25,190 bases of DNA, from positions 1 to 25,190 of IMG/VR virus record IMGVR_UViG_3300012936_000152. The stretch is one strand, 5' to 3'. Each line of letters opens with the position of its first letter. The first letter of the stretch is position 1. This document shows, piece after piece, positions 268-16,100 of this stretch. The notes below the pieces were generated by a model that had not been told where the DNA came from, did not search any database, and saw only the letters and a list, made by a program, of their open reading frames with translations. The position numbers and the translations under genes were made by a program. Origin of the DNA: a virus.

Positions 268-1064
268 AAGATGTTAAACCCACTATTGAATCCGAAGTCA
301 TCATCGGCAGTAACAAGAACATCGTCGTTTGCATCGACTTGACCATCCTGGTTGATGTCTGTTTTTGCTTTTGGAGTGTAGGTAAGTTCTGCTGCTCTGC
401 GATTGACTTCCTGATCTCCAACAGTTTCGATAACCTTTGCCTTTCTGATGATATCTGCTTTTCTGTAAGGACCGTAGAGATATGTCTTAGCAGAAAACTG
501 TAGTGTGTATACAACCAGTCTTCTGTTTAGAAAACTTTCATCCCATTCATCTTCTAGGTTTACAGAGTTGAGAGTAACAGATACATCTCTCTTCTCGTCC
601 ATGTCTGGAATCATCTTCAATGTAATATTGAATGATGGTTGAAAGAAGGGTAAAATCTGTTCTAAGATTTGTAGACCAGTGTCTTGGTCTTTTGATAGAA
701 TGCCTAGTTCAAAGTTTAACGTATATGGAACAGGTAGATACTGTACTCGTATCTCGTTACCATTTTCCTCAATGACGTTCTTGTATTTTTGAACAGGACT
801 TGTTTTCCTAGCAGAATCATATGAGATACCAGTCATCTCAAAATAAATTCTAGGCATTGTGATTGCTACCTTCTGTGTAGAAGGATTCTCAAACAATCTG
901 TATAAAAACTTTTGCTTTGGTCCATACGCCAAAGCGACCTTTTCCGTTTCAATAACCTCGTTAGTTTCTGGATCCCTTGTCTTTACATCAATGTTATTGA
1001 AAAGAGTTCCAAAACCGATTACTGTTCTTCGGATGGTTTCGTTATAAAAGTGGGATCCTAACAT
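264..1064 (-). CDS. gp15: Tail sheath stabilizer and completion protein, gp15-like
   Basis: The 266-aa product matches T4 gp15 (272 aa) in length and in features I recognise. It has an N-terminal FYN....RR..I..G.LFNNI motif (T4: FYNSSFRRY...LFSNI), a central EQILPFFQPSFNITL (T4: EQILPYFQPHFNTTM), and an RR..VYTL.F segment before a tyrosine-rich strand. In T4, gp15 forms a hexameric ring that caps the tail tube and sheath and binds the neck proteins gp13/gp14 so that the head can attach. The gene begins in a TGATG overlap with gp14 and ends in an ATGA overlap with gp16. The C-terminal tail (about residues 232-266) differs from T4 and carries an EF-hand-like loop, listed separately. No strong Shine-Dalgarno is visible; coupling to gp14 is likely. 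Confidence 0.93.
   Translation of the reverse strand: MLGSHFYNETIRRTVIGFGTLFNNIDVKTRDPETNEVIETEKVALAYGPKQKFLYRLFENPSTQKVAITMPRIYFEMTGISYDSARKTSPVQKYKNVIEENGNEIRVQYLPVPYTLNFELGILSKDQDTGLQILEQILPFFQPSFNITLKMIPDMDEKRDVSVTLNSVNLEDEWDESFLNRRLVVYTLQFSAKTYLYGPYRKADIIRKAKVIETVGDQEVNRRAAELTYTPKAKTDINQDGQVDANDDVLVTADDDFGFNSGFNIL
324..359 (-). other. EF-hand/dockerin-like Ca2+-binding loop in the gp15 C-terminus
   Basis: Residues 236-247 of the gp15-like protein read DINQDGQVDAND. They place D, N, D, G, V and D at loop positions 1, 3, 5, 6, 8 and 12, the classic EF-hand or dockerin calcium loop. It is a single copy in a Lys/Asp-rich tail after the conserved gp15 core. Calcium binding is inferred from the pattern only. 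Confidence 0.6.
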
Positions 1065-2467
1065 CAGAAACTACCTGTAAAATTACCAAATTCACCGAAA
1101 GGATTACCTTCAGTCCAATCAATCAATTCATCTGCTCCATCTTCAATCGCTTTGTTCTGATCATAGTTGGAGTTAGAATTATCAATAGAACTGAACGATC
1201 CTAGTGTATATAGGGCACCAGAAATAGTGCCTCTTATGAGGTCACCATCACGGAAGTCTCCAGACTTGTTCATCAACTCTAGAGTCAGATCACTACCGTT
1301 CCAACCACCTACTTCACCAATACTATCTGTAGCTAGATCATATAACTTTGCTCTCTGACCACTGGTGTCTGTAGTTTCATATGCATTGATACAATATCTA
1401 TTGTTAGCAGCATCATAATAGAAGTGACCTTTAGTTGTAGTTGCTGTAGTTCCGTTATAGGTATAACGATATCTCAACCTTTGATCTTCAAAATCCCAAT
1501 AGAAATACTTGACTTGAGTTGTGGTAGCAAATACAGGATCAAAGGATGCACTGTGATCTACGTAGATCTTACCTGATCCATCAGAAGACCAAGATCTGTT
1601 ACCACCCTGATCATTGAAGTTTCCTGCTACGACATGTTCTCTTGCTTGGAAATCTACTGGGTTCTGTGGTCCATCAATGGTAACTGTAGGTGGAGTAACA
1701 TATCCACTACCAGCATCTGTGATAGTGATAGCATTAACTGCACCGTTGTAGATAGTCGCTGTACCAGTTGCTTGAGTACCACCTGTAGGTGGAGCTGATA
1801 ATGTTACATTAGGAGCAGATCTATATCCAGAACCACCACCAGAAATAATAATATTATTTACTGTTCCATTGTCTAAAGTAGTTGTAGCAGATGCTGTAGA
1901 TCTTAGATCACTAAGGTTCAACGTAGTCATTACAGAATGATCTAGTTCGATAGCATCAATCTCCTCAATACCAGTATCAAACTCATCACTACCCTGCTCA
2001 TAGATCTCAGCAGTGATCTCATAAAAATAGTTTTTGCCTAACTGGTAGAATGGTTGCTCTCTTTCAACGAACTTAATTTCGTATGCATTACCAGTCAGAG
2101 GATAGTAAATAAGATCCCCTTCGTTAGGTCTTTGTGTAATAGTAAGATTCAAAGCAGGAACTAGAGACTGTTCCCATCTTCTCTTTGATAGGATGAACTT
2201 AATCTCGTCACTAATTCGTACACCAAACTTACTGATGAAATCTACAGGAGATCCAAATCCTTCAACATTGACCAGTAGCATTTCAATCATATAAGATTGA
2301 TTGAACTCTGAGTATATGACTTCACCCAAAGTCTTATCCCTTAGCATAGTTCTAGGGATATAAAAAACATCGGTGCCGAACAATTTGATTTGCTCGTCAA
2401 CCAAGTCTTGTACTAGATTCTGTTCAGTGGTATTACCACCGTGCTGAGGAAAATAAACTTTTTTCAT
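1064..2467 (-). CDS. gp14: Neck protein gp14-like, with a large inserted domain
   Basis: The 467-aa protein begins with a recognisable gp14 core (about residues 1-175). This includes a LV.EQI...G.DVFYIPR stretch (T4: VAESIQMRGVECYYVPR), FISKFGVRISDEI (T4: FFSNFGMQVQDEV), P.EGDLIYYPL (T4: PKEGDLIYFPM) and FYQLGKN (T4: FYQLGQN). In T4, gp14 joins gp13 in the neck ring that connects the filled head to the tail. T4 gp14 is 256 aa, so this protein is about 210 aa longer. The extra length lies at about residues 193-435, between the core and a short acidic/aromatic C-terminus (GNPFGEFGNF) resembling the T4 end. Its ATG overlaps the gp13 stop as ATGA and its stop overlaps the gp15 start as TGATG, so gp13-14-15-16 form one translationally coupled string. 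Confidence 0.92.
   Translation of the reverse strand: MKKVYFPQHGGNTTEQNLVQDLVDEQIKLFGTDVFYIPRTMLRDKTLGEVIYSEFNQSYMIEMLLVNVEGFGSPVDFISKFGVRISDEIKFILSKRRWEQSLVPALNLTITQRPNEGDLIYYPLTGNAYEIKFVEREQPFYQLGKNYFYEITAEIYEQGSDEFDTGIEEIDAIELDHSVMTTLNLSDLRSTASATTTLDNGTVNNIIISGGGSGYRSAPNVTLSAPPTGGTQATGTATIYNGAVNAITITDAGSGYVTPPTVTIDGPQNPVDFQAREHVVAGNFNDQGGNRSWSSDGSGKIYVDHSASFDPVFATTTQVKYFYWDFEDQRLRYRYTYNGTTATTTKGHFYYDAANNRYCINAYETTDTSGQRAKLYDLATDSIGEVGGWNGSDLTLELMNKSGDFRDGDLIRGTISGALYTLGSFSSIDNSNSNYDQNKAIEDGADELIDWTEGNPFGEFGNFTGSF
1163..1891 (-). other. Inserted beta-rich domain within gp14, with two GSGY repeats
   Basis: This is approximately residues 193-435 of the gp14-like protein, absent from T4 gp14. 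It starts with two similar units of about 38 residues: GTVNNIIISGGGSGYRSAPN and GAVNAITITDAGSGYVTPPT, each followed by a VT(L/I) strand and a Pro/Gly turn. A Ser/Thr/Tyr/Trp-rich, beta-predicted segment follows (WSSDGSGKIYVDHSASFDP, YFYWDFEDQRLRYRY). The pattern suggests a surface decoration added to the neck. Boundaries are approximate and the function is unknown. Confidence 0.65.
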
Positions 2468-3300
2468 CCGATCATATCAAGCGGTGGTAACTCGTATGTG
2501 CTGGAAGAAGCATCCATTAATGCTTGGATTTCATTCAGAGCATCTTCATACAATTGTCTTCCGTTCATGGATACTCCACCTGGGAGTTGAACACCATTGA
2601 ACTTGATCAAGTTTTGTCCCCACTGTCTCTTGATTAGAGCAGTAGCATATTTTTTGACGAACTGATCATTATAAACTTCTGTAAATGTAGCGGGATCTAA
2701 AGCTCTATAACACTCGATGAGTAACCACTGATCTTCTGTTACTCTTTCTGGGTCAATATCAATATACAGACGATCTTGTCTACAGTTAAATCTGTAACCA
2801 ACCAATGAACCTGTATTGATAATCATATCAATAGTTTCAAAGTGTTGCTTTACCATGTAGTAGTTGACCATATCAACACCACCAAAAGCAAGACCTGTTC
2901 CTGATGTGTAAGAAAACAAATCCATCAAATAGTATTGGTTGTTAAGACCAAACAAACTATTTCTTACAAAGTTTGAACTGATACCATATACTTTTGTGAT
3001 ACCAAATACATGCTCTGGAATCTCTAAGTAGTTCTTTCTATTCTCCCATGTTGCTGCATCTGGAGCAGAAGTAGTAGCGGTTTCATTTGCTGTTGTAAAT
3101 CTTGTTACATCATCCGCAGTAAACTCGTGCTTGAGATACATTCTCTCAGCACCATTAAAGTGCCTCTCTCTAAAATACTGTAAAGCATCATCAATTGCGT
3201 CATCAATCTGATCATCATCTAGATTAATTTCAAGCACAGGAGCACCTAACTGTCTTAGACAGTAGTCTCTCAGTTCTTGTCTGCTGGATGGTTGAGCCAC
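2464..3300 (-). CDS. gp13: Neck protein gp13-like (head completion)
   Basis: The 278-aa product (T4 gp13: 309 aa) carries the characteristic N-terminus RQELRDYCLRQLGAPVLEIN, then an Asp-rich DDDQIDDAIDDALQYFRERH helix and an aromatic/acidic body. In T4, gp13 and gp14 form the neck that closes the packaged head and docks the tail. I chose the GTG at 3300-3298 as start: it gives the conserved short lead MAQPSSRQEL, and the sequence just upstream is a hairpin plus T-run rather than coding. An AGGGG lies about 9 nt before the GTG. A CTAAATA late-promoter motif at 3328-3334 would give a leader of about 22 nt. The 3' end overlaps gp14 as ATGA. Confidence 0.93.
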   Translation of the reverse strand: MAQPSSRQELRDYCLRQLGAPVLEINLDDDQIDDAIDDALQYFRERHFNGAERMYLKHEFTADDVTRFTTANETATTSAPDAATWENRKNYLEIPEHVFGITKVYGISSNFVRNSLFGLNNQYYLMDLFSYTSGTGLAFGGVDMVNYYMVKQHFETIDMIINTGSLVGYRFNCRQDRLYIDIDPERVTEDQWLLIECYRALDPATFTEVYNDQFVKKYATALIKRQWGQNLIKFNGVQLPGGVSMNGRQLYEDALNEIQALMDASSSTYELPPLDMIG

Positions 3301-3329
3301 AAAAAAATACCCCTAGTCTCCTAGAGGTA
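3301..3329 (-). terminator. Hairpin plus T7 between the 151-aa gene and gp13; may also mask the gp13 ribosome site
   Basis: On the minus strand a 9-bp stem (arms 3321-3329 and 3308-3316, one G-U pair) encloses a GAGA tetraloop and is followed directly by seven T (3301-3307). This fits an intrinsic terminator for the 151-aa gene. The downstream arm contains the AGGGG that serves gp13. Confidence 0.75.
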
Positions 3330-3334
3330 TTTAG
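3328..3334 (-). promoter_or_regulatory. Late promoter motif CTAAATA for gp13-gp16
   Basis: CTAAATA on the minus strand sits just after the stop of the 151-aa gene and 28 nt before the gp13 GTG. It is a variant of the T4 late -10 element TATAAATA. With T4 spacing, transcription would start near 3322, inside the left arm of the hairpin, so the promoter-derived mRNA would lack most of that arm. Confidence 0.6.
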
Positions 3335-3335
3335 C

Positions 3336-3791
3336 TTATTGAGCTTCTACTTCATGTAAGAACCAATGTCTCGCTGCAGCAATCGTATCAAAGATACGTT
3401 TCTGATCTTGGAATTCACAATACCAAGTAATTCCTCCATCTTTCCCTTCAGGAATTCTATCTACTAAAAGTTGGTTATCAGATAGTGTATGCATTGCTTC
3501 TAACTCTTGTTCAGTATCAGCAGTAAGCATTGCATCAATTACCATGTTGTACTTATGAGGATCCCATTTCTGCTCAATTTCTTGAATGACTTCATACATT
3601 GGAAGTTCATCAATAGACTTACCATATCCTTCTCTATCGATCTCGATAACCTTTCCTTCTTCCCATCCTGGTTCACCACGGCGAAGAGCTTCTAGTTCTT
3701 CACCTACGGCAAAGCGATGTTCAATATTCATGTCCATTTCAGAGATGTCCAAACCCCCCTGTCCAGATGGGTTTTCCGTAATATCACTCAT
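3336..3791 (-). CDS. Conserved-looking acidic hypothetical protein, 151 aa
   Basis: I do not recognise a family. The 151-aa product is acidic and soluble-looking, with no signal peptide or membrane segment. The N-terminal 25 residues are polar and probably flexible. A middle segment has VGEELEALRRGEPGWEEGKV, which reads like a small beta-barrel or linker, then a helical acidic stretch. The C-terminus ITWYCEFQDQKRIFDTIAAA and RHWFLHEVEAQ looks like a folded alpha/beta unit. The ATG at 3791-3789 has no good Shine-Dalgarno. A GATAAATA late motif (3824-3831, minus) lies 33 nt upstream. The gene precedes gp13, separated by a terminator-like hairpin, and is divergent from the plus-strand oxygenase island. 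It is expressed with the late genes but need not be structural. Confidence 0.75.
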   Translation of the reverse strand: MSDITENPSGQGGLDISEMDMNIEHRFAVGEELEALRRGEPGWEEGKVIEIDREGYGKSIDELPMYEVIQEIEQKWDPHKYNMVIDAMLTADTEQELEAMHTLSDNQLLVDRIPEGKDGGITWYCEFQDQKRIFDTIAAARHWFLHEVEAQ

Positions 3792-3801
3792 TTTATGTTA
3801 G

Positions 3802-3809
3802 GATAAATA
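3802..3809 (+). promoter_or_regulatory. Late promoter motif GATAAATA reading into the oxygenase island
   Basis: GATAAATA on the plus strand is a T4-type late -10 element. It lies 76 bp before the first plus-strand gene and faces the minus-strand copy at 3824-3831. It would give the island late as well as early transcription. It is a single short motif, so it could be coincidental in AT-rich DNA. Confidence 0.45.
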
Positions 3810-3812
3810 ACG

Positions 3813-3857
3813 ACAGTATAACATATTTATCTGTTGCGAGTTGATGAGTTATACTGT
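3813..3857. repeat. 10-bp inverted repeat overlapping the early promoter (possible operator)
   Basis: ACAGTATAAC at 3813-3822 and its exact reverse complement GTTATACTGT at 3848-3857 are separated by 25 bp. The right arm ends on the first base of the -10 TATAAT. The left arm lies between the two late motifs. It could be a regulator binding site or an RNA stem; no regulator is identified here. Confidence 0.5.
3824..3831 (-). promoter_or_regulatory. Late promoter motif GATAAATA for the 151-aa gene
   Basis: GATAAATA on the minus strand lies 33 nt upstream of the ATG at 3791, the same geometry as the other late motifs in the window. Predicted start is near 3818, giving a leader of about 27 nt. 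Confidence 0.6.
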
Positions 3858-3862
3858 ATAAT
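3834..3862 (+). promoter_or_regulatory. Sigma70-type early promoter for the oxygenase island
   Basis: A -35 TTGCGA (3834-3839, 4 of 6 consensus bases) and a perfect -10 TATAAT (3857-3862) are separated by 17 bp, the optimal spacing. Transcription would start near 3869, leaving a leader of about 17 nt before the ATG at 3886. It is the only convincing host-type promoter I see, in a region otherwise run by T4-type late motifs. Confidence 0.75.
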
Positions 3863-3885: not shown

Positions 3886-4332
3886 ATGAGTATCAAAGCA
3901 CTTGTGTTAGAGGGTGGCGAGACTGTTATCGCTGATGTACAAGAAGTACATGATAAAGAGAAGCAAGAATTTCTTGGTTACCGAGTAAGCAATCCATACA
4001 TTGCAGAAATGGAATGGTCTGAAGTTCCATCTGCTCCTGTAGAAGGAACATCACTTAGTGGTGATGCTCAGTCTGCTGAAGTGAAATTTAGTTACTGGGG
4101 ACCTCTTGCTGCGACAAGGGAATTTGATTTTGTTAAAGAGTATGTTCGTGTTATCTATGAAGCACATCCAGATACTGTTCAACTATACATGTCTGTTTTA
4201 GCACACCACCAAGAACATTTTGTTAACGAAGCAAATGTAGAAACCTCTAAGACAGTTGTTACTATGCTTCCTGAAGAGGGTGCAGAAGGTGCATCTGCAA
4301 ATAATGATCCATCCCAATCTTTTGATTCCTGA
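3886..4332 (+). CDS. Small acidic protein with an Sm/Lsm-like N-terminus, 148 aa
   Basis: The 148-aa protein opens with strands reading ALVLEGGETVIADVQEV and GYRVSNPYIAEM. The layout (xxLxxGExVIAxVxEx, charged turn, GYxxxNPYxxxx) resembles an Sm/Lsm-like barrel as often seen in small phage proteins. I cannot confirm an RNA-binding loop. The middle (FSYWGPLAATREFDFVKEYV) and a following helix are globular; the last 30 residues are acidic and Ser/Asn-rich, probably disordered. It is first in the plus-strand island, 24 nt after the early -10 element. The upstream sequence is A-rich (TAGAAAAAATG) with no clear Shine-Dalgarno. Its stop overlaps the next gene as TGATG. Function is unknown; a regulatory or RNA-related role would be inference. 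Confidence 0.7.
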   Translation: MSIKALVLEGGETVIADVQEVHDKEKQEFLGYRVSNPYIAEMEWSEVPSAPVEGTSLSGDAQSAEVKFSYWGPLAATREFDFVKEYVRVIYEAHPDTVQLYMSVLAHHQEHFVNEANVETSKTVVTMLPEEGAEGASANNDPSQSFDS

Positions 4333-5213
4333 TGACTGAAATTATTATTGATACTGGTCTTAAAGACAAGATTTTCCAAGTAAATTGGGAAGATGTATGT
4401 GGTAGTATTACTTCTACCCAAGACATTCAAGACTACGGTGATTATGCAATCATCGATGATTTTATTGAAAAGATTGATGATCTATCATCAGCTATATCTA
4501 GATATCCATCTGATTCAAGATCTCTGGAAGTAGAAGCAGCACATAAAGAATTTGGTGAACTAGAAAGGGGATATAAATTTCCTGGTATTGAACAACTATT
4601 ACCATCAACATATTTAAATCCTATCATCTTCGCATGTTACAAAGCTTTTGTTGAATGTGAATTCATTCCTCATGATTTGGATTCTAATGTTACTGAAGAA
4701 GGTAAAATTAGATTTATGCAGAAACTTCCTAGTATTTCTATTGCAAAGGGAACCCTTCTGCATGAAGGTATGATTATCAATAAAAATGCTGAGGTTCCTG
4801 GACTTGGAAACTTTGACTATCAAGCAACTCTATTTCTCACAGAACCTCCAGTAGGAAGTGGAATTGGATTGTATGATGTATGTATTGGTGATGAACGTTG
4901 TTCTGGTATCGAAGATTTGATGGATATCGAAGATAACGATGTGAGAAAAGAATTTTCTAAGTGGTTGAATGAGAATGCTACTTGCAAATCAGAGACAGTT
5001 GAATACCAAAACTATAAGGAAAATGATACTTTCCAACAGACTAGATTTATTGAAGCAAGAAAAAATCGTTTAGTCCTTCATAAGGGAACAAACTTCTTCC
5101 GTTACGAATATGAAGGTACGGGTGATATGTATATGCTATCCATCTATATGAATCAACCACCTAAGAGCAAAGAACTTGATGGTAACGAAATTGAGCAAGA
5201 TGACAACTATTGA
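4332..5213 (+). CDS. 2OG-Fe(II) oxygenase-like protein, apparently lacking the metal site, 293 aa
   Basis: The C-terminal half of this 293-aa protein follows the same strand order as the next gene. NFDYQATLFLTEPP (about 160-173) parallels SYAANIFLTDSG downstream, and NRLVLHKGTNFFRYEYEG...YMLSIYMN (about 246-274) parallels its C-terminal NSISMYRGNRWHSATFD...RYSLVACIL. The catalytic His-x-Asp that should precede the first strand reads NAEVPG, the distal His position reads NFFRY, and the Arg that binds 2-oxoglutarate is not in place. I infer a degenerate double-stranded beta-helix protein that may act as a partner or binding protein. The N-terminal 100 residues are acidic and unassigned. It starts in a TGATG overlap with the upstream gene and overlaps the following gene by about 14 nt. 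Confidence 0.65.
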   Translation: MTEIIIDTGLKDKIFQVNWEDVCGSITSTQDIQDYGDYAIIDDFIEKIDDLSSAISRYPSDSRSLEVEAAHKEFGELERGYKFPGIEQLLPSTYLNPIIFACYKAFVECEFIPHDLDSNVTEEGKIRFMQKLPSISIAKGTLLHEGMIINKNAEVPGLGNFDYQATLFLTEPPVGSGIGLYDVCIGDERCSGIEDLMDIEDNDVRKEFSKWLNENATCKSETVEYQNYKENDTFQQTRFIEARKNRLVLHKGTNFFRYEYEGTGDMYMLSIYMNQPPKSKELDGNEIEQDDNY

Positions 5214-6054
5214 TGTACCAGAGATTAATCTAGAGGATTTTTTCACATATTCAACTAGAGATATCATGGATATCTGTAAATTCAATCCTATAGAAGAGAT
5301 TGAAGTTGATATTGGTAGTGTTGAAGGACTCAGATATTTTAAAGCAAGAAATCTTCTCAAAGATCCTCTAGCTCTAAGACAATTTCTACGTCAATTTCCT
5401 GCTGAAAATAGACAAAAAAGTTCAGAGGAAGGAATGTCTTTTAGTGGTAGCTCATCTCCTGGATTGCAGCAACCTATCGAAAGATCATTCTTGAAATATA
5501 TGGGGTATCAAATCTACACTATTTGTAGACAGTTTGATTTTTTGAAATACAAAGCAAAAGATATTAACTGGAGATATTACACGAACTATTACTATAATGG
5601 TATGACGGCGTTTAATAAAAACTATCTACCCCATGTAGATCCATTCTCATACGCCGCTAATATTTTTCTTACTGATTCAGGTGAACACGGAACTTCATTT
5701 TTTAAATATGTAGATCCAGAAACAAACAAATCATATTATAGTATGGGTGATATTATGTCTTCTGGTGATGAAATTTCAAGAAGATATGTTGAAGTCATTA
5801 AAGAAAAATATGGATATGAACTGGCTAATCCAGAACATATTTTAAATAAAAAAGGGTACGGGTTATATCAATGTAAAAATGGAGTGTCTCCATGGGTCAA
5901 GTATAAAGGGGATGACTGCTATCAAAGATACCATCACCTACCTTCTGACTATAACTCCATTTCTATGTACAGAGGTAATAGATGGCATAGCGCAACTTTT
6001 GATGCAGAGAATAGTAAAACTGGTAGATACTCTCTAGTAGCTTGTATCCTATGA
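5200..6054 (+). CDS. 2OG-Fe(II) oxygenase-like protein, 284 aa
   Basis: The protein shows the double-stranded beta-helix signature of 2-oxoglutarate/Fe(II) dioxygenases. LPHVDPFSYAANIFL gives the H145-x-D147 iron ligands, RGNRWHSATFDAEN gives the distal H263, and TGRYSLVACIL gives the R276 that would bind the 2OG carboxylate (numbering from the ATG at 5200). It resembles the DUF6445-type phage and bacterial proteins more than classical prolyl hydroxylases; substrate unknown. Starts at 5176 (TTG) and 5179 (ATG) are also open. I prefer 5200 because it gives the short 14-nt overlap typical of this island and the clean start MTTIDVPEINLEDFF. The stop overlaps the next ATG as ATGA. The gene is noticeably AT-rich. 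Confidence 0.75.
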   Translation: MTTIDVPEINLEDFFTYSTRDIMDICKFNPIEEIEVDIGSVEGLRYFKARNLLKDPLALRQFLRQFPAENRQKSSEEGMSFSGSSSPGLQQPIERSFLKYMGYQIYTICRQFDFLKYKAKDINWRYYTNYYYNGMTAFNKNYLPHVDPFSYAANIFLTDSGEHGTSFFKYVDPETNKSYYSMGDIMSSGDEISRRYVEVIKEKYGYELANPEHILNKKGYGLYQCKNGVSPWVKYKGDDCYQRYHHLPSDYNSISMYRGNRWHSATFDAENSKTGRYSLVACIL

Positions 6055-6614
6055 AGACAAAGAAACTTAAATGGGATGAGTCTGAAATACAGACATTTGA
6101 GGATGTTTTTCCTAGGGAAGATTTTATTGAACTAACAGATTACATGAGACTTCCGAATTGGTCTTATGGTAATATTTCAAATCCTAGTTCTCCATCTACA
6201 CCATTTTTTTACAATGACTTACAAGAAGTTCCATTCTTTACAGAGCATTTATTTAAGCAAATTTGTGAACTAACTGGTCAAGATTGGGATCTACACAGAT
6301 GTTATGCTAACGGACATGTATCTGGAACCAACGGTGCTCCTCACCAAGATGATGAAACTCCTGGTTCATATACTTTTCTTGTCTATTCTAACTTTGTAAA
6401 TAGTGAAGTTAAAAAATGGAAACCTGCGTGGGGAGGTAAGACTATTTTTTACTTAGACTTTAACGATAACTATAAATGGGTATTACCTAAACCAAATACT
6501 GCTACATTTTTTCCTGCTGATATATTTCATCATGCAGAACCTACAACCAGACATTTTATTGGATTACGATTATCTGTAGCATGGAAATTACGGGCAAAAG
6601 AAAAGGGGTCGTGA
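6051..6614 (+). CDS. 2OG-Fe(II) oxygenase, prolyl-4-hydroxylase-like, 187 aa
   Basis: The motif order is that of small phage 2OG-Fe(II) oxygenases. GAPHQDDETPGSYTFLVY contains the H98-x-D100 pair, WGGKTIFY is the usual GGxTxFY strand, FFPADIFHHAEP carries the distal histidine (H160 or H161), and GLRLSVAWKL supplies the 2OG-binding R173. The enzyme would use Fe(II), O2 and 2-oxoglutarate to hydroxylate an unknown substrate. At 187 aa it is a complete single-domain protein without targeting signals. I use the ATG at 6051, which overlaps the previous stop as ATGA, rather than the in-frame TTG at 6042. It is last in the island: its stop codon lies in the loop of the terminator hairpin. Confidence 0.88.
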   Translation: MKTKKLKWDESEIQTFEDVFPREDFIELTDYMRLPNWSYGNISNPSSPSTPFFYNDLQEVPFFTEHLFKQICELTGQDWDLHRCYANGHVSGTNGAPHQDDETPGSYTFLVYSNFVNSEVKKWKPAWGGKTIFYLDFNDNYKWVLPKPNTATFFPADIFHHAEPTTRHFIGLRLSVAWKLRAKEKGS

Positions 6615-6627
6615 GACCCCCTTTTTT
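6601..6627. terminator. Bidirectional intrinsic terminator between convergent genes
   Basis: GGGGTC (6605-6610) and GACCCC (6615-6620) form a 6-bp stem with a GTGA loop. Downstream on the plus strand is CTTTTTT (6621-6627). On the minus strand the downstream bases are TTTT (6604-6601). It separates the plus-strand island from the minus-strand 133-aa gene, whose stop is at 6630-6632. Confidence 0.85.
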
Positions 6628-6629
6628 AT

Positions 6630-7031
6630 TCAGATGATACCGCCTGTTGGCGTTGGTTGTTCATCAAGATAGATCCCAACCAAAGGACTATCTTTTCTAT
6701 ATTTTGCTGGGCAATTTGCATTCCAAAGTTCTGCAATTTCTTGGATAACTTCGTCCTTAATTACTCCCTTGTTACCAGAACCAGGAGCAACACCTGCAGT
6801 AGATCCATCAACTTTTGCTTCGTCTCTTAATAGAGATTCGTAGCATACATCAGCAGAAGCCATCAATCTTAAGTTTGCTGCTGCATCTTCTTTAGAAACT
6901 CCTTCTGCATCGAAGTCCCATTCAGCACCACATGCTGCAGTAACTGCTTTCAATCTTTCTACCAGTTCTTCTCTGGTATGTTTGATATCAAGGAGTTGAT
7001 AACTCCCATCATGACCTTTAATGTTTTTCAT
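6630..7031 (-). CDS. Hypothetical protein, 133 aa
   Basis: I do not recognise a family. The 133-aa product is soluble-looking, with three cysteines. A mostly helical N-terminal two thirds contains TREELVERLKAVTAACGAEW and ANLRLMASADVCYESLLRDE. A Gly/Ser linker (GSTAGVAPGSGNKG) joins it to a short C-terminal segment (EIAELWNANCPAKYRKDSPL) and a Pro/Gly tail. There is a good Shine-Dalgarno (GGAGAG about 11 nt before the ATG at 7031). It follows the 1902-aa gene, but a strong terminator lies between them and I see no late motif in the 68-bp gap. It is therefore expressed by read-through or from a promoter I cannot identify. It is bounded downstream by the bidirectional terminator. Confidence 0.75.
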   Translation of the reverse strand: MKNIKGHDGSYQLLDIKHTREELVERLKAVTAACGAEWDFDAEGVSKEDAAANLRLMASADVCYESLLRDEAKVDGSTAGVAPGSGNKGVIKDEVIQEIAELWNANCPAKYRKDSPLVGIYLDEQPTPTGGII

Positions 7032-7054
7032 TTGATTTGTACTCTCCGTGTGTT

Positions 7055-7085
7055 AAAAAAATTTGTGGGGGAGGGTCACTCCCCC
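7055..7085 (-). terminator. Intrinsic terminator after the 1902-aa virion gene
   Basis: On the minus strand, GGGGGAG (7085-7079) and CTCCCCC (7073-7067) form a perfect 7-bp stem with a 5-nt TGACC loop. ACAAA and seven T (7061-7055) follow. Confidence 0.9.
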
Positions 7086-7099
7086 GTCGTGTGTATGAT

Positions 7100-10000
7100 T
7101 TACGCCTGAGACTCAGACCACGTAATACGTGCCGAGATCTGATATGGGTTGGAGCTAGAAACGCCACCCGAGTCAACGATGTTAGCAACAACAGTTAGTA
7201 GGTCAGGTCCGTTAGGATAGATGCCGTCACCACCAAGGATCGAGTTACCCAGAGAACTAATTCTAGATAGGTCGAAGGTAGTAGAAGACGTTTGACCGTT
7301 ACCTGCACCTGCTGCACGGAAGGAGAGGATCTGAGATCCACCCGATACCGTATCATCAGCAGCGTGTCTAACAAGTTGACATAGTGAAGGATCATCCACG
7401 TTCTCAAATGTATCAGTGGAGAGTGATGGGTTCAGAATCAGAGAAATCTCTGTTTCGTGAGTGGTTAGAATACCAACAGAGTCGAGTGCTAGTTGCATTC
7501 TGTTGATGATTTCACGTTCACCCAGAGCACCAGTGATAGAGGAATCAACCGAAGGTGCAAGTCTAATCGAAACCAGAGGAATATTCAGAGGAATCAATAC
7601 AACTTGGTTGGTTGCCGCAGAACCGATGTTCATCGTTGTTCCGCTGGAAACTGCAGGGTTGCCTAGAGCACTGTTGATAGCAGAGTAGTAGTTACGTGGG
7701 AAGTAACGAGTAGTTCCCTGTAGATACTGGATGTAAACATAGTGATAGCTGCTATCTGTATATGTTCTGGTGTTAATTGGTTTACCAGACTGGAAGTAAC
7801 CATTAGCGGCACTACCTTCAAAGATCAGCGTGTTGACCGTTAACTGAGACGCATCAGAGGTGTTGAAAGGAATACGGATGAAGTATTCTCTAGACCAGTA
7901 AGATCTATATGCCTCAGTGATTGTGCTGTTCGCTTGAGTCTGTGCAGAAGTACCAGAACTGTTGGTGAACTTCAGTGAGTTACCAGACGCGGTGAATAGG
8001 TACGCTTCGTCATCCTGGAACATACCATCCATGATGACCGAAGTACCCCAGTGGAACAGAGTTCCGACATAAGTAGGTAGATCACCATTCTCAATCTCAT
8101 AACGTGCAGGTAGGTTACCAGAACGGAAGTAAGATTCAGTCAGTTTGTTGTTGTGCTTAAACTCGTGGAAATACTTAACATGTCCATGAGCATCCTTAAA
8201 TCCGAAGCGGATCTTACCAGCACCATACCAGGAGTAATCCATGTAGCACATCTGGATCTTGGATAGGTCTAGAACATATCCAGACTTACCTAGACCATCT
8301 GCCTTATCAAGGTTCCACTGAGTCTGAGGTACTTTAGTATCTACAGTCTTAGTGATGATAACGTCAGCGTTGGATACACCTCTGTATGAAGGTTGAACTG
8401 TAAGTTGTGTGTTACTTGTAACCTTAACAACTTTGTAAGACATACCACGGATAACAATCTTATCACCTGGATTCAACTGAGATGTGAAGTTGGTATTTGT
8501 ACCAGTTACAATATGAGAGTCCTTAGTAACAGAGACTCTACCAGGAACCTGCTGTACAGAAGATCTTCTTACACAATTCAATGTATCACCATCGAACTCG
8601 AAGTAGAATCCGTTCTGATCATCGAACATACCGCAACGGATGTCGCAATCAGTCCAAGAAAGAACTGCAAGTGTTGGGAATCCACCACCGCTAGTAGCAG
8701 ATGGTTCTTCTTTCAACAGATAGGTGAAGTTGAAGTCATCAATTACCGAGTCGATTGGACCCTCAACGTTGAACTGTTGGATATCAGTATTGATAACCTT
8801 AACCTTGAGGTTTGAGGTCAACTGGTGAGGCTTGCTAGTTTGTGCAGCAGCAGTAAACTTCTGTTGGAAGTCGAGTGTACCACCAGTAAAGTCGGTTATA
8901 ACTTCGGTTGTTAGTTTAACTGTTGTAGCATCAACAACTTCCGAAATTCTAGTTTCAGAAATCAAGCAGTTGTTTGCTGTACCAGAACCAGTTACAATCT
9001 GACCAGGAACGAATCCAACCGTGCTTGTAACGGTAACCAAATCAGAACCTGCAGTACCAGAAGCATTGGTCTCAAGTCTTTGAGCACCAGTTGCAACGTA
9101 GTTAATATCCAGAATTGGAATCTGAGGAATAAAGTTAATTGCGAGAGAGGTCTGAATACCTTTACCTGACTGATAACGGAAATACTTACGAGTCTGTCTA
9201 GAGATTCTAGAGTTAGGAGACTTAGAAGTACCGATTTCCATACCACCGTCAAATGGTCTGTGTAGGAAGAATCCATCAGGTCTTACATAGATGTAAGAAG
9301 GAATTAGATAGTTCGTACCAGACTGGGAGAAGGAGAATGCAGTATCGACGAGAAGTAGATCGTCGTCAGTAATAGCAGTAACTCTTCTGGATTCAAGAAC
9401 ACCTGGAGTACCACCAGTTGTGTTAACAACCTTGATGATATCACCGATCTTAAAGAATCTCTGGAACGCTGCGTTTGTACCAACAACTCTTCTAGAACCA
9501 GTAACAACTTCAATTGTACCAGTACCAGTAACCTCACCAGATAGGTTTCCAGAAATAAATTCTTGGATACCCGAACCTGTACCAGAAATGGTAATGATGT
9601 TTGTATTATCTAGAGCATCTTGTAGTGAAGGTGCAAGTCTGAAGTTGTTGTTATCAACTAGAACTGCATAGTAATCAGTGTTATGAGTCAGACCACCAAC
9701 AGCGGATCCACTGTTGTCGTTATAGATGATTCTAGTTCCAGTGGAATAGAAGTGGTTGTTGATGTTAACACAGTTGTTAGAAACATCAATGTTTGAACTT
9801 GCATCAAACTGCTTAATAGTAGGTGCAATCTTGAATGGAATTGTAACTTCAAGTTCCTTCTCGGAGATTGCTCTAGTCGTGGTGTATGAACCATCAACAG
9901 TACCAAAGTCTGCAGTCGTGTTCTCAAAAGACTGAACACCACTACCTTGACCAGTAAACTGAATTTCATTACCACTAGCAGCGTTGCCAGCAGTGGTTGC

Positions 10001-12808
10001 TAACTGGAATCTGTTACCGTCAATAGTGATAACGTAGTAAGAGCTTCCGCTACTGAAAGGCGATGCAAGTGTACCTGGGCTGGTAAATTTCAGTAGTTCA
10101 CCAGTAGAGAACAGGTTGTCCTTAATGTAGAAGGAGTATCTCGCAGGGTTAGCAATAACACCAGTAAAGGTGATATTACCAGTTGCATATCTCAGTCTTA
10201 CAGGAGAAGCACCAGTGCTTGTCTTAATTCTAAAGCGGTTGTTATCAATTCTATCAATGTAGAATGTACCAGAGGTATAAGTGCTCTGGTTCATGTTTTG
10301 ATCATAGAAATACTGAATCTGACCACCATCAGCAACACTCAGCGTTACGTTCTGGTTGTTAGGGAATCCATGATTCTCTTTATAGAACGAGTCATTAGTA
10401 GAGGTATTCCTCTTAACGAATGCGATGTACTGGTTAGTGTAACCATCGGAGCTGTAGCTAGCGAAGTAACGGTTCATAGTTGCAGACCAACCTTCCTGGT
10501 AATACCAGAAGAACCAGTTGTTACCTCTAACTCTGACGTATTGTGGATTTACATAGTCAGTATAGAAGTTGTCTCTATAGTAATAAGTTTGAGGTAGATT
10601 ACTATTATAACCTTGTACAGTATATGCTCTACTCCATTGATTACCCTCACCTTGGTCATTGATATAGCGGTTGTTATTATCTGTTAGGAAGTCATAATTA
10701 CCGTTAAATCTGGAAGAGGTGCTGAAAGGAAGACTCTCATGGTTATATCCATAAGTTCTAGGTTGTGTACCTCTGTTCTGGTAGTAGTAGTTAATATAGA
10801 AATAATCAGTGCTGTTATCACCCAATTCAGGACGACGTGTAGCAAAGTAAACTGTTCTATCCCATGAAGTACCACCTAGACCATAGGTGCTGTTGACTGC
10901 AGCGAAGTCATGACCAGATCTAGTTCCACCCTGATCCCAGTAGTAGGTATAGAAGTATGCATACCAGTCATACCAACCTTTGTATTCTCTACGGATATTG
11001 TATACAAGACCGAAGTTATGATCACCAAATGTCCAAGTACCATCATGAGGATAAGATGCTGCAGGATATGCATCACTGAGGTTGATAGCACCTTGGTTTA
11101 GACGCTGAGACTGGTGTAGTTTAATGGTATCAGCATCAACTCTCTCAACATAATAAACCTGCATTCTTCTCAAACCACCCAAAGGTCTGTTACCTGGGTT
11201 TGGATAGTAGAGTAGGCAGTAGTGGTTTTGGAGATTGTGACTGGGGATTCTGATTGTATTATCAACATAATTAACATCAGACTCACCAAATCTCTTGGTG
11301 TATGTACACTCGTAGTTGAATACGAATGTCTTTTCTCTGTTTACTGTTACCGCAGTGTTTGATGTTGGATCTTCGTCAACATATGGTCTTCCATCAGGTG
11401 CAGTTGCTGTAGGATCTTGAATCTCAAGAATCTTAGGCGAAACAGTGTTAACGAAGTAGAAGTTAGTGTTGTCTGCGAAACCGTGCTCAGAGACAGTAGT
11501 TAGATAAACTTTAGAAGTTGTCTTTGTGCTGATAGTGAATGTATCACCCATACCTGGGTGAGCATCACAATAGTAGCTCAGAGGAGATGGAGTAGCTCCA
11601 TCAATGTAAATTCTGATGTATGCTCCTACACTACCTGGGCTACCATGTGCATATACAAACGTAGTGAATTCAGAACCACCACCATGAGTACCATCAGATG
11701 TAGTAGAGAATCTTAATGGGTGAGTACCAACAGAAGTATCAGAAAGATCGAATGTGTAGATCGACTTTCTGGAAAGATCTAGTTGTGCTTGTTGTACTCC
11801 ATCAAGGAAATACTTATTACCAGCACTTGCTACACCAGTTGAACCATCAAGAGTGTAAACAATTGAAGAACCAATTAGATCAATCTGTTCACCATTATTG
11901 AAAGAACCTGTTACATCATAGATATCAATAGTTGAACCACTGACTCTACCAATAACACCAGCACCACCACCAGCACCGTTAACAGTTGCACCAACAAAAT
12001 ACTCATTTGCGTCAACTGTTGTAGTTGCTGTTAGAGTAGTAACTGCTTTTACAGTAACAGGAATATTGTATAGATCAGATACAATACCAATCGACTGGTC
12101 TAGGGAGATTTGAGAACCCTGGAAGAACTTACCTGGAATAATCGAGGTGTAAGTACCTTGCAGTTCTCTGGTAGTTGGTTGGTTTGATCTTGCCTTATAT
12201 GTAAAGGTAGTTGTAGTTGGAACTGCCTGAATAATATAAGTACCTTCTGCAGTAATTTCTGCAAGACCCGTAACTGTAATAGGAACACCACTAGTTAGGT
12301 TGTGGTCAAAACTTGTAGTAACTGTAATAAGTTCTGAACCAGCAACTGCTTCTACCTTAGAGATAAAGGGGATTGTAGTATCAGAAGTAGATGCGTAGAA
12401 AGAAGGAATGTTGTTGATCGTCTGAATGGTCTCCCACTTAGATGCCTGAGGTCCGTACTCAAAGTCGGTATCAATCAGGTTTTCTGGATTGGAGACTCTG
12501 AACTTAGATACAGCGTCAACAAAAGTTTCCGATGGTTCAAATTTTACCGAATCTTCTTCTATAAAAATTTGAAGTGCATCTGTATCACTCATCGACGTGG
12601 TGTCGTGAAGTAGAGTGATTGTAGTTTCATCTGCAACACCATCATAACTGAATGTACCAGTCTTGGTACTGTCAGCAAAGTTGTAGATAATAATGTTATC
12701 TGTTGTGTTTGTAATCATCAACAGACGGCGCTGGTGGTGATTACCTTTTAGTTTGACCGTTTTTGCCGAAGCATCAAACGTAAAGTCAAAGAGCAATTTT
12801 TTTGCCAT
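7100..12808 (-). CDS. Large virion structural / fibre-like protein, 1902 aa, with a cupredoxin-like insert
   Basis: The N-terminus (MAKKLLFDFTFDASAKTVKL) and the stretch around residues 105-140 (NPENLIDTDFEYGPQASKWE) are of a type I know from T4-like cyanophage virion proteins. The body is a chain of beta modules. Several share the plan H(G/N/F)-x-TG-x-V...YYV..vd.n.FrLa...I..tG.GSG.Q.F (about 815-1090). Others are an aromatic-rich segment (about 604-795), a cupredoxin-like unit (about 331-428), an RPDGFFLHRPFDGGMEIG region and an FTSQLNPGDKIVIRGMSYKV module. The conserved-looking C-terminal domain has ITGALGEREIINRMQLALD. There is no catalytic domain. It most likely forms a tail-associated fibre or baseplate appendage. 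AGGGGA lies about 10 nt before the ATG, and a late-like motif is at 12831-12838. A strong terminator follows. Confidence 0.85.
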   Translation of the reverse strand: MAKKLLFDFTFDASAKTVKLKGNHHQRRLLMITNTTDNIIIYNFADSTKTGTFSYDGVADETTITLLHDTTSMSDTDALQIFIEEDSVKFEPSETFVDAVSKFRVSNPENLIDTDFEYGPQASKWETIQTINNIPSFYASTSDTTIPFISKVEAVAGSELITVTTSFDHNLTSGVPITVTGLAEITAEGTYIIQAVPTTTTFTYKARSNQPTTRELQGTYTSIIPGKFFQGSQISLDQSIGIVSDLYNIPVTVKAVTTLTATTTVDANEYFVGATVNGAGGGAGVIGRVSGSTIDIYDVTGSFNNGEQIDLIGSSIVYTLDGSTGVASAGNKYFLDGVQQAQLDLSRKSIYTFDLSDTSVGTHPLRFSTTSDGTHGGGSEFTTFVYAHGSPGSVGAYIRIYIDGATPSPLSYYCDAHPGMGDTFTISTKTTSKVYLTTVSEHGFADNTNFYFVNTVSPKILEIQDPTATAPDGRPYVDEDPTSNTAVTVNREKTFVFNYECTYTKRFGESDVNYVDNTIRIPSHNLQNHYCLLYYPNPGNRPLGGLRRMQVYYVERVDADTIKLHQSQRLNQGAINLSDAYPAASYPHDGTWTFGDHNFGLVYNIRREYKGWYDWYAYFYTYYWDQGGTRSGHDFAAVNSTYGLGGTSWDRTVYFATRRPELGDNSTDYFYINYYYQNRGTQPRTYGYNHESLPFSTSSRFNGNYDFLTDNNNRYINDQGEGNQWSRAYTVQGYNSNLPQTYYYRDNFYTDYVNPQYVRVRGNNWFFWYYQEGWSATMNRYFASYSSDGYTNQYIAFVKRNTSTNDSFYKENHGFPNNQNVTLSVADGGQIQYFYDQNMNQSTYTSGTFYIDRIDNNRFRIKTSTGASPVRLRYATGNITFTGVIANPARYSFYIKDNLFSTGELLKFTSPGTLASPFSSGSSYYVITIDGNRFQLATTAGNAASGNEIQFTGQGSGVQSFENTTADFGTVDGSYTTTRAISEKELEVTIPFKIAPTIKQFDASSNIDVSNNCVNINNHFYSTGTRIIYNDNSGSAVGGLTHNTDYYAVLVDNNNFRLAPSLQDALDNTNIITISGTGSGIQEFISGNLSGEVTGTGTIEVVTGSRRVVGTNAAFQRFFKIGDIIKVVNTTGGTPGVLESRRVTAITDDDLLLVDTAFSFSQSGTNYLIPSYIYVRPDGFFLHRPFDGGMEIGTSKSPNSRISRQTRKYFRYQSGKGIQTSLAINFIPQIPILDINYVATGAQRLETNASGTAGSDLVTVTSTVGFVPGQIVTGSGTANNCLISETRISEVVDATTVKLTTEVITDFTGGTLDFQQKFTAAAQTSKPHQLTSNLKVKVINTDIQQFNVEGPIDSVIDDFNFTYLLKEEPSATSGGGFPTLAVLSWTDCDIRCGMFDDQNGFYFEFDGDTLNCVRRSSVQQVPGRVSVTKDSHIVTGTNTNFTSQLNPGDKIVIRGMSYKVVKVTSNTQLTVQPSYRGVSNADVIITKTVDTKVPQTQWNLDKADGLGKSGYVLDLSKIQMCYMDYSWYGAGKIRFGFKDAHGHVKYFHEFKHNNKLTESYFRSGNLPARYEIENGDLPTYVGTLFHWGTSVIMDGMFQDDEAYLFTASGNSLKFTNSSGTSAQTQANSTITEAYRSYWSREYFIRIPFNTSDASQLTVNTLIFEGSAANGYFQSGKPINTRTYTDSSYHYVYIQYLQGTTRYFPRNYYSAINSALGNPAVSSGTTMNIGSAATNQVVLIPLNIPLVSIRLAPSVDSSITGALGEREIINRMQLALDSVGILTTHETEISLILNPSLSTDTFENVDDPSLCQLVRHAADDTVSGGSQILSFRAAGAGNGQTSSTTFDLSRISSLGNSILGGDGIYPNGPDLLTVVANIVDSGGVSSSNPYQISARITWSESQA
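10424..10999 (-). other. Tyr/Trp-rich segment of the 1902-aa protein
   Basis: Residues about 604-795 are exceptionally rich in Tyr, Trp, Phe, Asn and Arg. Runs include GWYDWYAYFYTYYWDQGG, DYFYINYYYQNRG, TYYYRDNFYTDYV and NNWFFWYYQEGW. It has an irregular repeat feel and almost no Lys, Glu or Cys. Such surfaces bind carbohydrate or mediate protein packing in other fibres; that role is inference. Confidence 0.65.
11525..11818 (-). other. Cupredoxin-like domain in the 1902-aa protein
   Basis: Residues about 331-428 read NKYFLDGVQQAQLDL, a YTFDLS strand, THPLRFSTT, then YYCDAHPGMGDTFTI. The spacing matches a type-1 copper protein: an upstream His (H363) on one strand and a C-xx-H-xx-M cluster (C414, H417, M420) at the C-terminal loop, as in plastocyanin and azurin. 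Fold and ligand set are inferred from the motif; metal occupancy is unknown. Confidence 0.65.
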
Positions 12809-12830
12809 TTTCTGTTATTCCCCTTGTGTT

Positions 12831-12838
12831 TGTTTATA
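12831..12838 (-). promoter_or_regulatory. Late-promoter-like TATAAACA before the 1902-aa gene
   Basis: TATAAACA on the minus strand lies 23 nt before the ATG at 12808 and differs from TATAAATA at one base. Predicted leader is about 17 nt with AGGGGA near its 5' end, matching the other late units here. The rest of the 97-bp gap to the 69-aa gene shows no hairpin or gene. Confidence 0.5.
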
Positions 12839-12905
12839 GTTACGAAGTGTAGTTCTCAAGTCAGTGCTCACATTGATAATAAATCTCTTGTAAAAAGTTT
12901 TGGGT

Positions 12906-13115
12906 TCACCAACCCATTGCCGCCATCATTCCCATAGAAATGGTGATTTGCTCAACAACGTAGTCTTGCCTTGCGTGAGGAATACCACCAGCTGTGGCTC
13001 CATCATGTAGAACCAGACTCATGGTATCTGTGTCCACAGTTAGTTCCGCAAGGGCACCAGTAAATGTAGAGTGTTGTACCGTAGTACCTCTTCTCAACTG
13101 TACCTGTTTGGTCAT
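12906..13115 (-). CDS. Mini-protein with a Mtd_N-like fibre-attachment domain, 69 aa
   Basis: The 69-aa product has the pattern VQLRRGTTVQHSTFTGALAE, LTVDTDTMSLVLHDGATAGG. This is the compact beta domain (QLRRGT...F.G..GE...DTD...L.vHDG.T.GG) found at the N-terminus of many phage tail-fibre and receptor-binding proteins, including the Mtd_N type. Normally it trimerises and attaches a longer fibre; here it is almost the whole protein, followed only by a hydrophobic Met-rich tail (ITISMGMMAAMGW). It lies between two giant fibre genes. Its own late promoter is at 13144-13151, and an AGGGGA Shine-Dalgarno lies just ahead of the ATG at 13115. It may cap or join the neighbouring fibres, or be the remnant of a longer fibre gene. 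Family assignment is from pattern memory. Confidence 0.75.
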   Translation of the reverse strand: MTKQVQLRRGTTVQHSTFTGALAELTVDTDTMSLVLHDGATAGGIPHARQDYVVEQITISMGMMAAMGW

Positions 13116-13165: not shown

Positions 13166-16100
13166 TTAAATGATAGTGACGAACGTGAATCCAACCTCAA
13201 ACTCGCGGTACTCGGTAGTAGCATCACCGCTGAGAGTAATAGTACCGCTTCCAACATGACGACTGTTGACGAGTCTTTCTTTGCCTTCTCCACTGAATGT
13301 GAAGAGAACTGTACTTTCTGGTTTGTTGGTGGTCTTGGATTCTGCCGCTCCACTTGCAGTAAAGAGTGAACCAGATCCATTGAAGTGAGGAATAAATCTG
13401 ACTTCTGTCGCACCACCAGATATGGTATACTGTGCAGTATCCCCAACATATCTTTCGGTGTGCTTCTCTTCTGATGTTCCAGATAGAGTTGCAGAACCTG
13501 TTGCTTGGTATCCAGAACGGATGAAGGATTCGTTTGCTCCTCCAGAGAATCTTGCGATGAGTGTATCTGCATCTGCAAACGCAACTGCTTCTGCTGCTCC
13601 ACCAACTGCGAATAGAGAACCAGTACCAACATGAGGTTGTACTGTTCTTTCTTCTGCAGATCCAGTGATAACAATGGATCCAGAACCAACGAAATCTCTT
13701 GCTCTCGGAGTTTGAGCTGTACCAGAAACAGTAAACAGAACTGTATCTTCTGGTGGATTCGTAGTTGTGGATTCTGCTGCACCAGATGCAGTGAATAGAG
13801 AACCAGAACCGAGGAAGCTTCCAGTAAACTTGGAAACAGATTCGCCAGAGAGTTGAACCTGTAAAGTCTCGTCGTCTGCAAACGTAACTTTTTCGTCGAT
13901 TGCTTGACCAGAGAACGTGGAAATATTTCCACTTCCAATGTGAGGACGACTGACTGCACTTGGGCTTGTTCCAGAGAATGTGAAGAGACCAAATCCATCT
14001 GGACTGAAGGTAATCTTCTCTTCTGCAAAGATAACTGCAGCGCCACCTTCGAGGAAGTCCATGACTCCCGATCCAGTGTAATGATCCAGTTGTTCTTCGA
14101 CTGCATTTCCACTGAATGTGTATTGTGCAGTATCTTCTGGTGGTTGTGCAACAAACGCTTCTGCACCAAATCCACCAATTCCGTAGAGACCGATTGCTGT
14201 CTCGACGAACGTAGCACTTTCTGCTGCACCACTGAATGCGAATAGAGATCCAGAACCATCGAAGTAACGAATGACTTTGATGTCTGTTGCTTCGCCAGAT
14301 AGAGTTACAGAACCAGAACCAACATAAGATTCTGTATGTCTTTCTACCGACTGACCAGCAGCGGTAAAGAGAACTGTACTTTCTGGTAGGTTGGTTGTAA
14401 CAGCCTCTGCGAGACCACCTGCTGTGAATAGAGATCCAGATCCAACAAAGTCTCTTGCTCTAGTAGTATCACCATCACCAGTGAGGTCAATCGAACCACT
14501 ACCAACCCAGTTAGGAATGAATCTAACGTTAGTTGCTTCACCACTCCAAGTATACTGAGCGAAGTCACCGACATAACGTTCGGTGTGTTTCTCGGATACT
14601 CTTGTACCAGATAGTGTTGCTTTTCCGAATCCTCTGTTGTTTGCTGGAGAGAAGGATTCTGCTTTGCTTCCACCAAAGACAAGTAGATATGTGTCTTCTG
14701 GTGGGTTGAATGCAACTCTTTCTGCAGCACCGCCAACTGTGAAGAGGTTGCCCCCAACAACAGGCATGTACTTGATTTTGAAGACAACAGCACCACTGAG
14801 TGTGATAGTTCCGCCTTCCTCGTCTGCTTGTGCAACTCTTTCGACACATGTACCAGAGAATCCACCATAAGAACCAGATCCAACGAAGTCTTTGGTAACT
14901 GCTGCTGTACCAATACTTCCAGCAACTGTAAAGAGTGCAGTATCTTCTGGTGGATTTGTAGTTGTGGATTCTGCTGCACCATTGGAAGTGAATAGATTAC
15001 CAACACCAGTGAAGTGGTATTCAACACTAACAGTACCTGTACCACTAACGACATATGGTTGTGTGATTCCGAAGTATGCTTCGGTATGTTTCTCGGAAAC
15101 TCTCGTTCCAGAGAATCCACCATAAGAACCAGATCCGATGTAAGGTGCTGGTGTGAAGGATTCGTCCTTGCTTCCTTGGAACTCGTAAAGTCCTGTAAAT
15201 TCTTCTGCAACTGCAACTGCTTCTGCAGCACCGCTGAGTAGATTGATAGTACCAGAACCAGGATATCTGACTCTGTAGATAAACTCGACTGCACCACTGA
15301 AGGTGTATAGTGTTGTATCTTCTTCTGCAACCGCAACTCTTTCGATAAGAGCTTGACCAGAGAAGGTAGATAAAGTTCCACCGACAAATACTTCTCTGAC
15401 TGTAGCAGCTTCTGCTCCAGTTCCAGATGCAGCAAACAGAACTGTACTTTCTGGTTTGTTGGTGGTCTTGGATTCTGCTGCTCCGCCAGCAGTGAATAGA
15501 GATCCAGAACCAACAAAGCTGACGACATAGTTGAATACAACCTGACCACTGATCGTATAAAGACCAGTTGCTGCTTCGTTGACGGTGAAGCTTTCGACAA
15601 GTCCACCAACAGAGAAGAGAGAACCAGATCCAACTTCTGTTGCTGGAGTAAAGGATTCTGCTTTGCTTCCACCAACAACAAAGATGACGGTGCTTTCTGG
15701 TTTGTTGGTGGTCTTGGATTCTGCAGCTCCACCTGTTGTGAATAGGGAACCAGATCCAACTTCGGCGTTGCTTTCTCTTTCGACAGCAGATCCAGATAGA
15801 GTATACTGAGCAGTATCTCCAATATAATCTTGAGTTGCTTTCTCGACTGCAGTACCAGACAGAGTAATAGCAGTTGCAGTACCGACATAACGTTCGGTAT
15901 GCTTCTCGATACCAGCACCAGATACTGTAAATAGACCTGTTGCTGCTTCGTTGACTGTGACTGTATCTGCAACACCACCAGCAGTAAACAAGGATCCAGA
16001 TCCAACCCACCTGTCTGTTTGTCTCTCGACTGCAGTACCAGATCCAGTAAATAGAACTGTATCTTCTGGTGGGTTTGTTGTGGTAGATTCGACAAGTCCA

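Follow-up and report, generated by a model that had tools for sequence, protein, structure and literature searches.

The window analysed here is a 25,190-base stretch of viral DNA (IMG/VR record IMGVR_UViG_3300012936_000152, positions 1–25,190), whose gp13 region is closest to that of Kyanoviridae cyanophages. Four overlapping open reading frames (ORFs) on the plus strand interrupt its minus-strand genes: ORF1 (3886–4332, 148 residues), ORF2 (4332–5213, 293 residues), ORF3 (5200–6054, 284 residues) and ORF4 (6051–6614, 187 residues), with overlaps of 1, 14 and 4 nt. The true start of ORF3 is the ATG at 5200, downstream of the listed TTG at 5176, and ORF4 starts at the ATG at 6051. The genes on both sides are on the minus strand: gp15, gp14, gp13 (2464–3300) and a 151-residue gene, orfX (3336–3791), on the left, and a 133-residue gene, orfY (6630–7031), followed by the gene for a 1902-residue virion-type protein (7100–12808), on the right. 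The S-CAM1 homologue of the latter is annotated as a virion structural protein; no family in Pfam or PHROGs could be assigned to orfX or orfY. An earlier reading of these letters without database searches (the sequence-only reading) had described four overlapping plus-strand genes breaking up the minus-strand series near gp13, as the coordinates bear out. It had also called them more AT-rich than the structural genes, which is the case for ORF2–ORF4 (GC 0.33–0.35, versus 0.38–0.44 in gp13–gp15 and the fibre genes) but not for ORF1 (0.40), and oxygenase-like, which again suits ORF2–ORF4 but not ORF1, an LSm-like protein.

On the evidence of its residues and modelled fold, ORF3 is an intact 2-oxoglutarate (2OG)-Fe(II) oxygenase, for which turnover is predicted. 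Relatives of the block were collected at 88 loci in the synteny count, often with one contig retrieved more than once, and these comprise 41 distinct ORF2+ORF3 pairs. The residues of the HxD...H triad and the distal arginine (H145, D147, H263 and R276) are invariant in all 41 distinct ORF3 sequences. The AlphaFold2 model (predicted local distance difference test, pLDDT, 87; predicted template modelling score, pTM, 0.83) contains a double-stranded beta-helix (DSBH), and its leading matches in the PDB are 2OG oxygenases (E 1e-4, probability 1.0). These matches include Dictyostelium PHD, mimivirus lysyl hydroxylase, OGFOD1 and Tpa1, and also the small-molecule oxygenases PasI, PolD, KanJ and EvdO2. 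In Pfam only DUF6445 is matched, below the cut-off for the window protein, and 19 of 19 aligned members match it at E<=0.01; in PHROGs the protein belongs to phrog_1644, labelled 'minor coat protein'. With the peptide patterns used, no bacterial source of ORF3 was found in 84,980 genomes. ORF3-type genes also occur singly elsewhere in T4-like contigs. One such gene is flanked by sliding-clamp and clamp-loader-like genes, not far from an LSm-like gene (L173, region 9612–12948), and another lies near Hsp20-like, LSm-like and gp43 genes (L176, region 418–2250), the neighbours having been named by eye in both cases; the LSm and ORF3 oxygenase families appear to recur in proximity in T4-like phages.

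ORF2, as judged from profile alignment and residue loss, is a paralogue of ORF3 without the metal site, and it lacks the residues expected of an active oxygenase. The two families align in hhalign with a probability of 99.1 and E 6.5e-19 over 231 columns, and in the window protein HxD is changed to GxG. The full HxD...H...R set is present in only one of the 41 distinct ORF2 sequences (L171), while the others keep fragments; this count leaves out rows L176–L178, in which ORF3-type genes were listed as ORF2. Since L171, which retains the set, comes from a distant phage clade, the degenerate form is probably derived. The ratio of nonsynonymous to synonymous rates (dN/dS) of ORF2 in the window group, ~0.12–0.19, indicates purifying selection. 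The S-PM2 post-gp12 genes GC240, GC741 and PiuC were considered as homologues of ORF2 and ORF3 and were not supported by hhalign. The three consecutive 2OG-oxygenase-like proteins of the sequence-only reading are thus upheld as to fold in ORF2–ORF4, but in the relatives of the window the catalytic residues are kept only in ORF3 and ORF4. Three enzymes hydroxylating in succession is not a likely mode of action, ORF2 being a degenerate ORF3 paralogue.

The last gene of the block, ORF4, is by its sequence a second intact 2OG-Fe(II) oxygenase, belonging to the cyanophage family phrog_274 (T4-GC 166); its activity is predicted. It keeps HQD, FHH and R of the HxD...H...R set, aligns in hhalign with the family of S-PM2 p230 (cyanophage GC166; probability 100, E 7e-47) and matches Pfam 2OG-FeII_Oxy_3 (PF13640) at E 2e-5, just short of the threshold that Pfam sets. 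ORF4 is missing from the block in some lineages. A lineage without it (L049, L050, L052, L057, L060 and L061) has ~700 extra bases between orfX and gp13, room for another gene. Several RefSeq proteins labelled 'minor coat protein' (phrog_1644) or 'DNA endonuclease V' (phrog_274) carry the 2OG-Fe(II) motif and match ORF3 or ORF4 (NC_008296.2 gp213, NC_015281.1, NC_015287.1 and NC_006820.1 p230), which suggests that these labels are wrong and mask 2OG oxygenases.

The leading gene encodes no oxygenase: in its predicted structure ORF1 is a five-stranded Sm barrel with an Sm/LSm-like fold, a type associated with RNA binding, extended by a C-terminal helix and tail. It matches phrog_431 at E 4e-18. 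Confidence in the AlphaFold2 model is high for residues 1–40 (block means 90–95) and low in the C-terminal tail, and the best Foldseek match by template modelling (TM) score is the Sm/LSm-like protein from a marine metagenome, PDB 3by7 (TM 0.93 to target, root-mean-square deviation 1.3), with many spliceosomal Sm/LSm chains matching as well. ORF1 shares its fold with 3by7 but is longer, owing to the helix and tail, and leads an oxygenase operon. A PDB sequence search with ORF1, ORF3 and ORF4 gave no convincing match; ORF1 had weak hits to choline-phosphate cytidylyltransferase, but these were set aside and the fold match was preferred.

Transcription of the block appears to be under its own signals, as had been proposed. 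The 94 bp between orfX and ORF1 are conserved in relatives and contain a predicted sigma70-type promoter for ORF1–ORF4 (TTGCGA-17-TATAAT, 3834–3862, plus strand), which matches 10 of 12 consensus positions and is conserved in ~20 relatives, taking the form TTGACA-17-TACAAT in several distant ones. Promoter-like sites in the window are no commoner than in shuffled sequence, and the promoter call rests on this conservation. A late-promoter motif, GATAAATA, faces ORF1 at 3802–3809 (plus strand), its TAAATA invariant among ~20 aligned relatives, and another, GATAAATA, faces orfX, gp13, gp14 and gp15 at 3824–3831 (minus strand), where ATAAATA or CTAAATA is kept in nearly all aligned relatives; the late motif is likewise not above chance in its count in the window, and only its conservation was used. 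The late promoter of S-PM2 is NATAAATA, and in cyanomyoviruses an early and a late promoter ahead of the same gene are believed to produce middle-mode transcription (PMC2984593). A conserved sigma70-type promoter is thus accompanied by a late motif of the NATAAATA type, also conserved and directed toward ORF1, which suggests that the block is not simply 'early'; the label of a purely early island is not supported. A predicted bidirectional terminator lies between ORF4 and orfY (6605–6620; GGGGTC-GTGA-GACCCC with a T-run, and an A-run on the opposite side), and the hairpin form is retained in relatives with different stem sequences. A further terminator-like hairpin follows the 1902-residue virion-type gene (7067–7085, minus strand).

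The block moves as a cassette, as is evident from synteny, empty sites, a block swap and tree conflict. ORF1, ORF2 and ORF3 occur in identical order and orientation at every locus recovered with all three true genes, and on every contig long enough to show its surroundings the block sits between the virion-type gene and gp13, at the same site and in the same order in two distant phage clades. In five relatives with gp13 84–87% identical to that of the window (L040–L044), orfX, ORF1–ORF4 and orfY are all missing, and the virion-type gene is followed by a short spacer and then by the same gp13 leader hairpin, leaving an exact empty site, while more distant relatives (gp13 77–81%) carry the block, some without ORF4. 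The gp13 leader, a CTAAATA motif with a hairpin (3301–3334, minus strand), forms one boundary of the insertion and at the empty sites stands a few tens of bases after the stop of the virion-type gene. In this leader, which is kept at empty sites, a late-promoter-like motif is fused to a terminator-like hairpin, with seven T's directly before the GTG start. One close relative (L005) is 97–100% identical to the window in gp14–gp13, 90–93% in orfX and 95–100% in the virion-type gene, but 63–87% over ~3950–7100. Synonymous divergence (dS) for this allele (read as L029) is 0.05 in gp13 and 0.8–1.6 in ORF1–ORF4 and orfY, so that the divergence of the block reflects replacement rather than faster protein evolution. 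The flank tree unites lineages A, B and N (Shimodaira–Hasegawa-like approximate likelihood ratio test, SH-aLRT, 99), whereas the ORF3 tree rejects an A+B+N clade (approximately unbiased, AU, p = 0.00022). Because the ORF3 tree has long branches and does not reject the wider clade W+A+B+N (AU p = 0.17), the empty sites and the L005 swap are the strongest evidence of exchange. The block is thus gained, lost and swapped as a unit that also takes in the minus-strand genes orfX, missing along with it at empty sites, and the fast-evolving orfY, exchanged along with it. We hold this anatomy and cassette behaviour with high confidence; a unit acquired or exchanged as a whole is what the sequence-only reading had foreseen, and the comparison of gp13-flanking regions that it had proposed finds the block present or absent as a whole, with ORF1–ORF3 always together at one site. 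No integrase, recombinase or homing nuclease was recognized in ORF1–ORF4, orfX or orfY with Pfam and PHROGs, and since the breakpoints lie in or beside conserved flanking genes, the block is likely to move by ordinary homologous recombination in its flanks.

The block is carried by uncultured T4-like phages of the ocean that are relatives of Kyanoviridae. Runs of 2OG oxygenase genes beside tail genes are already known from cultured cyanophages, following gp12 in S-PM2 and S-CAM4, structural genes in S-ShM2 and a tail fibre gene in S-SSM7. These clusters (S-PM2 p227–p233, S-CAM4, S-ShM2 039–042 and S-SSM7 030–031) resemble the present block in bringing several 2OG oxygenases together near tail or structural genes; S-PM2 p230 (phrog_274) is homologous to ORF4, and Syn9 gp213, S-ShM2 041 and S-SSM7 030 (phrog_1644) are distant homologues of ORF3. 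Unlike the oppositely oriented block described here, they lie at another genome site, on the same strand as the preceding tail or structural genes and continuous with them, and no ORF2-like degenerate partner or LSm gene was found in the stretches inspected. The gp13 site is without the block in S-CAM1, S-BM3 and S-PM2. Searching cultured phages by tblastn with the window sequences gave no ORF2 or ORF3, relatives surfacing only with divergent queries, and among the annotated phages searched no ORF2–ORF3 pair, no LSm leader gene in such a run and no occupied gp13 site were found. The mobile metabolic cassettes of cyanophages (zwf-gnd-petE-PTOX) also come and go as units, although they occupy varied places and carry host metabolic genes (Sullivan, 2010; PMC3037559), whereas the present block has a fixed site, its own promoters and terminator, and no recognized host-derived genes. 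What is new is the pairing of an enzyme with a degenerate partner, the presence of an LSm gene at its head and its behaviour as a cassette; the 'undescribed system' suspected earlier is so, among the annotated phages searched, in its gene combination at the gp13 site but not in its consecutive 2OG oxygenases.

We tentatively read the block as a host-directed protein-hydroxylation module, with ORF2 serving ORF3 as a non-catalytic partner, a reading to which we give a probability of about 0.4. Its promoter motifs suggest that the block would be transcribed both early and late in infection, from the sigma70-type and late promoters, and the fold and conservation of ORF3 are consistent with hydroxylation of a protein side chain. 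ORF2 would then shape or recruit the substrate, a role like that suggested for the dead second domain of OGFOD1/Tpa1. The ribosomal prolyl hydroxylases OGFOD1, Tpa1 and Ofd1 combine one catalytic and one non-catalytic DSBH, possibly by duplication, much as ORF3 and ORF2 may do, and OGFOD1 and Tpa1 are among the best PDB fold matches of ORF3. In OGFOD1 the second DSBH is believed to have lost its activity once it had been duplicated, and to serve in binding the substrate or partners (PMC4396695). In those enzymes the domains are fused with the catalytic one first, whereas here two genes are found with the degenerate copy first rather than the fused chain of that family, and ORF3 is ~10–12% identical to OGFOD1/Tpa1/Ofd1, a superfamily-level similarity, so the comparison is one of working principle and not of membership. 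The target might be a host protein or ribonucleoprotein, the least secure step, and it is proposed because the divergence and swapping of the block are independent of the adjoining virion genes; ORF1 may link the module to RNA. More specifically, ORF3 and ORF2 could form a two-subunit hydroxylase that acts with an LSm ring on a host target associated with RNA, for example RNA polymerase, a translation factor or the ribosome, with alleles swapped according to host, but this we regard as a long shot.

Several observations weigh against the proposal of a host-directed module, and some of them favour other substrates. The tandem order and overlap of ORF2 and ORF3 are suggestive only of a complex; the promoter and late motifs are supported by conservation and not by counts; and cyanobacterial hosts are deduced from relatives, psbA and CpeT being present in one 135-kb empty-site relative and not in the island carriers, whose contigs are incomplete. 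The matches of ORF3 to protein hydroxylases are at the superfamily level (TM ~0.4 to query), and PasI, PolD and KanJ score about equally. The block also has a virion-type gene on either side and a late-promoter motif of its own, and the cultured 2OG oxygenase runs adjoin gp12, tail fibre and structural genes, as would be expected if the oxygenases hydroxylated proline, lysine or asparagine of the phage's own tail or fibre proteins, stabilizing or varying them; prolyl hydroxylases and the mimivirus lysyl hydroxylase among the fold matches of ORF3 would suit such a role. We consider this somewhat unlikely. Collagen-like Gly-X-Y runs, and with them a collagen-like fibre substrate, are absent from the structural and fibre proteins of the window that were checked, and close relatives with homologous virion genes manage without the block. 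The swapped block, moreover, adjoins a virion-type gene that stays 95–100% identical, which both weakens the case for a virion substrate and argues against that adjacent gene as a co-evolving target.

A small molecule or glycan, such as a host surface sugar, a metabolite or a secondary product, is an unlikely substrate in our judgement. PasI, PolD, KanJ and EvdO2 do stand among the best PDB folds, and one interpretation of a cyanophage halogenase/2OG cluster is a role in secondary metabolism or capsule modification (PMC7824862), but no sugar, halogenase, transferase or carrier gene was recognized with Pfam and PHROGs in the block or its small neighbours, and an LSm-like partner would be unexpected. 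For cyanophage 2OG oxygenases generally, found in 14 of 16 genomes, a 2OG/NtcA role has been suggested (Sullivan et al., 2010; PMC3037559), in which consumption of 2OG would tune NtcA-dependent transcription in the cyanobacterial host. An uncoupled 2OG sink needs no specific partner, and this role, very unlikely here, would leave the conserved degenerate partner, the LSm gene and allele swapping unexplained. Least credible to us is an ancestral block that descended vertically and was lost a few times, its high divergence reflecting fast evolution and not exchange. The same site and order in two distant clades and the failure to reject W+A+B+N would agree with it, but the divergence limited to the block between near-identical phages, at synonymous sites too, and the rejection of A+B+N need exchange; the strict form is contradicted, while loss and exchange can both hold.

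Elsewhere in the window, gp14 (1064–2467, minus strand) is 467 residues long, against 292 in S-CAM1 and S-PM2, and its residues ~190–290, which match PHROG families of tail fibres and baseplates, look like an additional domain inserted in a neck protein. A 3083-residue repetitive fibre-like ORF (13166–22417, minus strand) contains repeats such as 'GSGSLFT.SGAAE', and the several long open frames in another frame of the same strand (370, 660 and 388 residues) seem to arise as a side effect of the codons of the repeats.

Of the auxiliary genes of T4-like cyanophages that still lack an explanation, those for 2OG oxygenases are some of the commonest. A defined operon with natural deletions and recent allele swaps offers handles for finding the substrate of one of them, indicating which proteins to co-express and which natural variants to compare.

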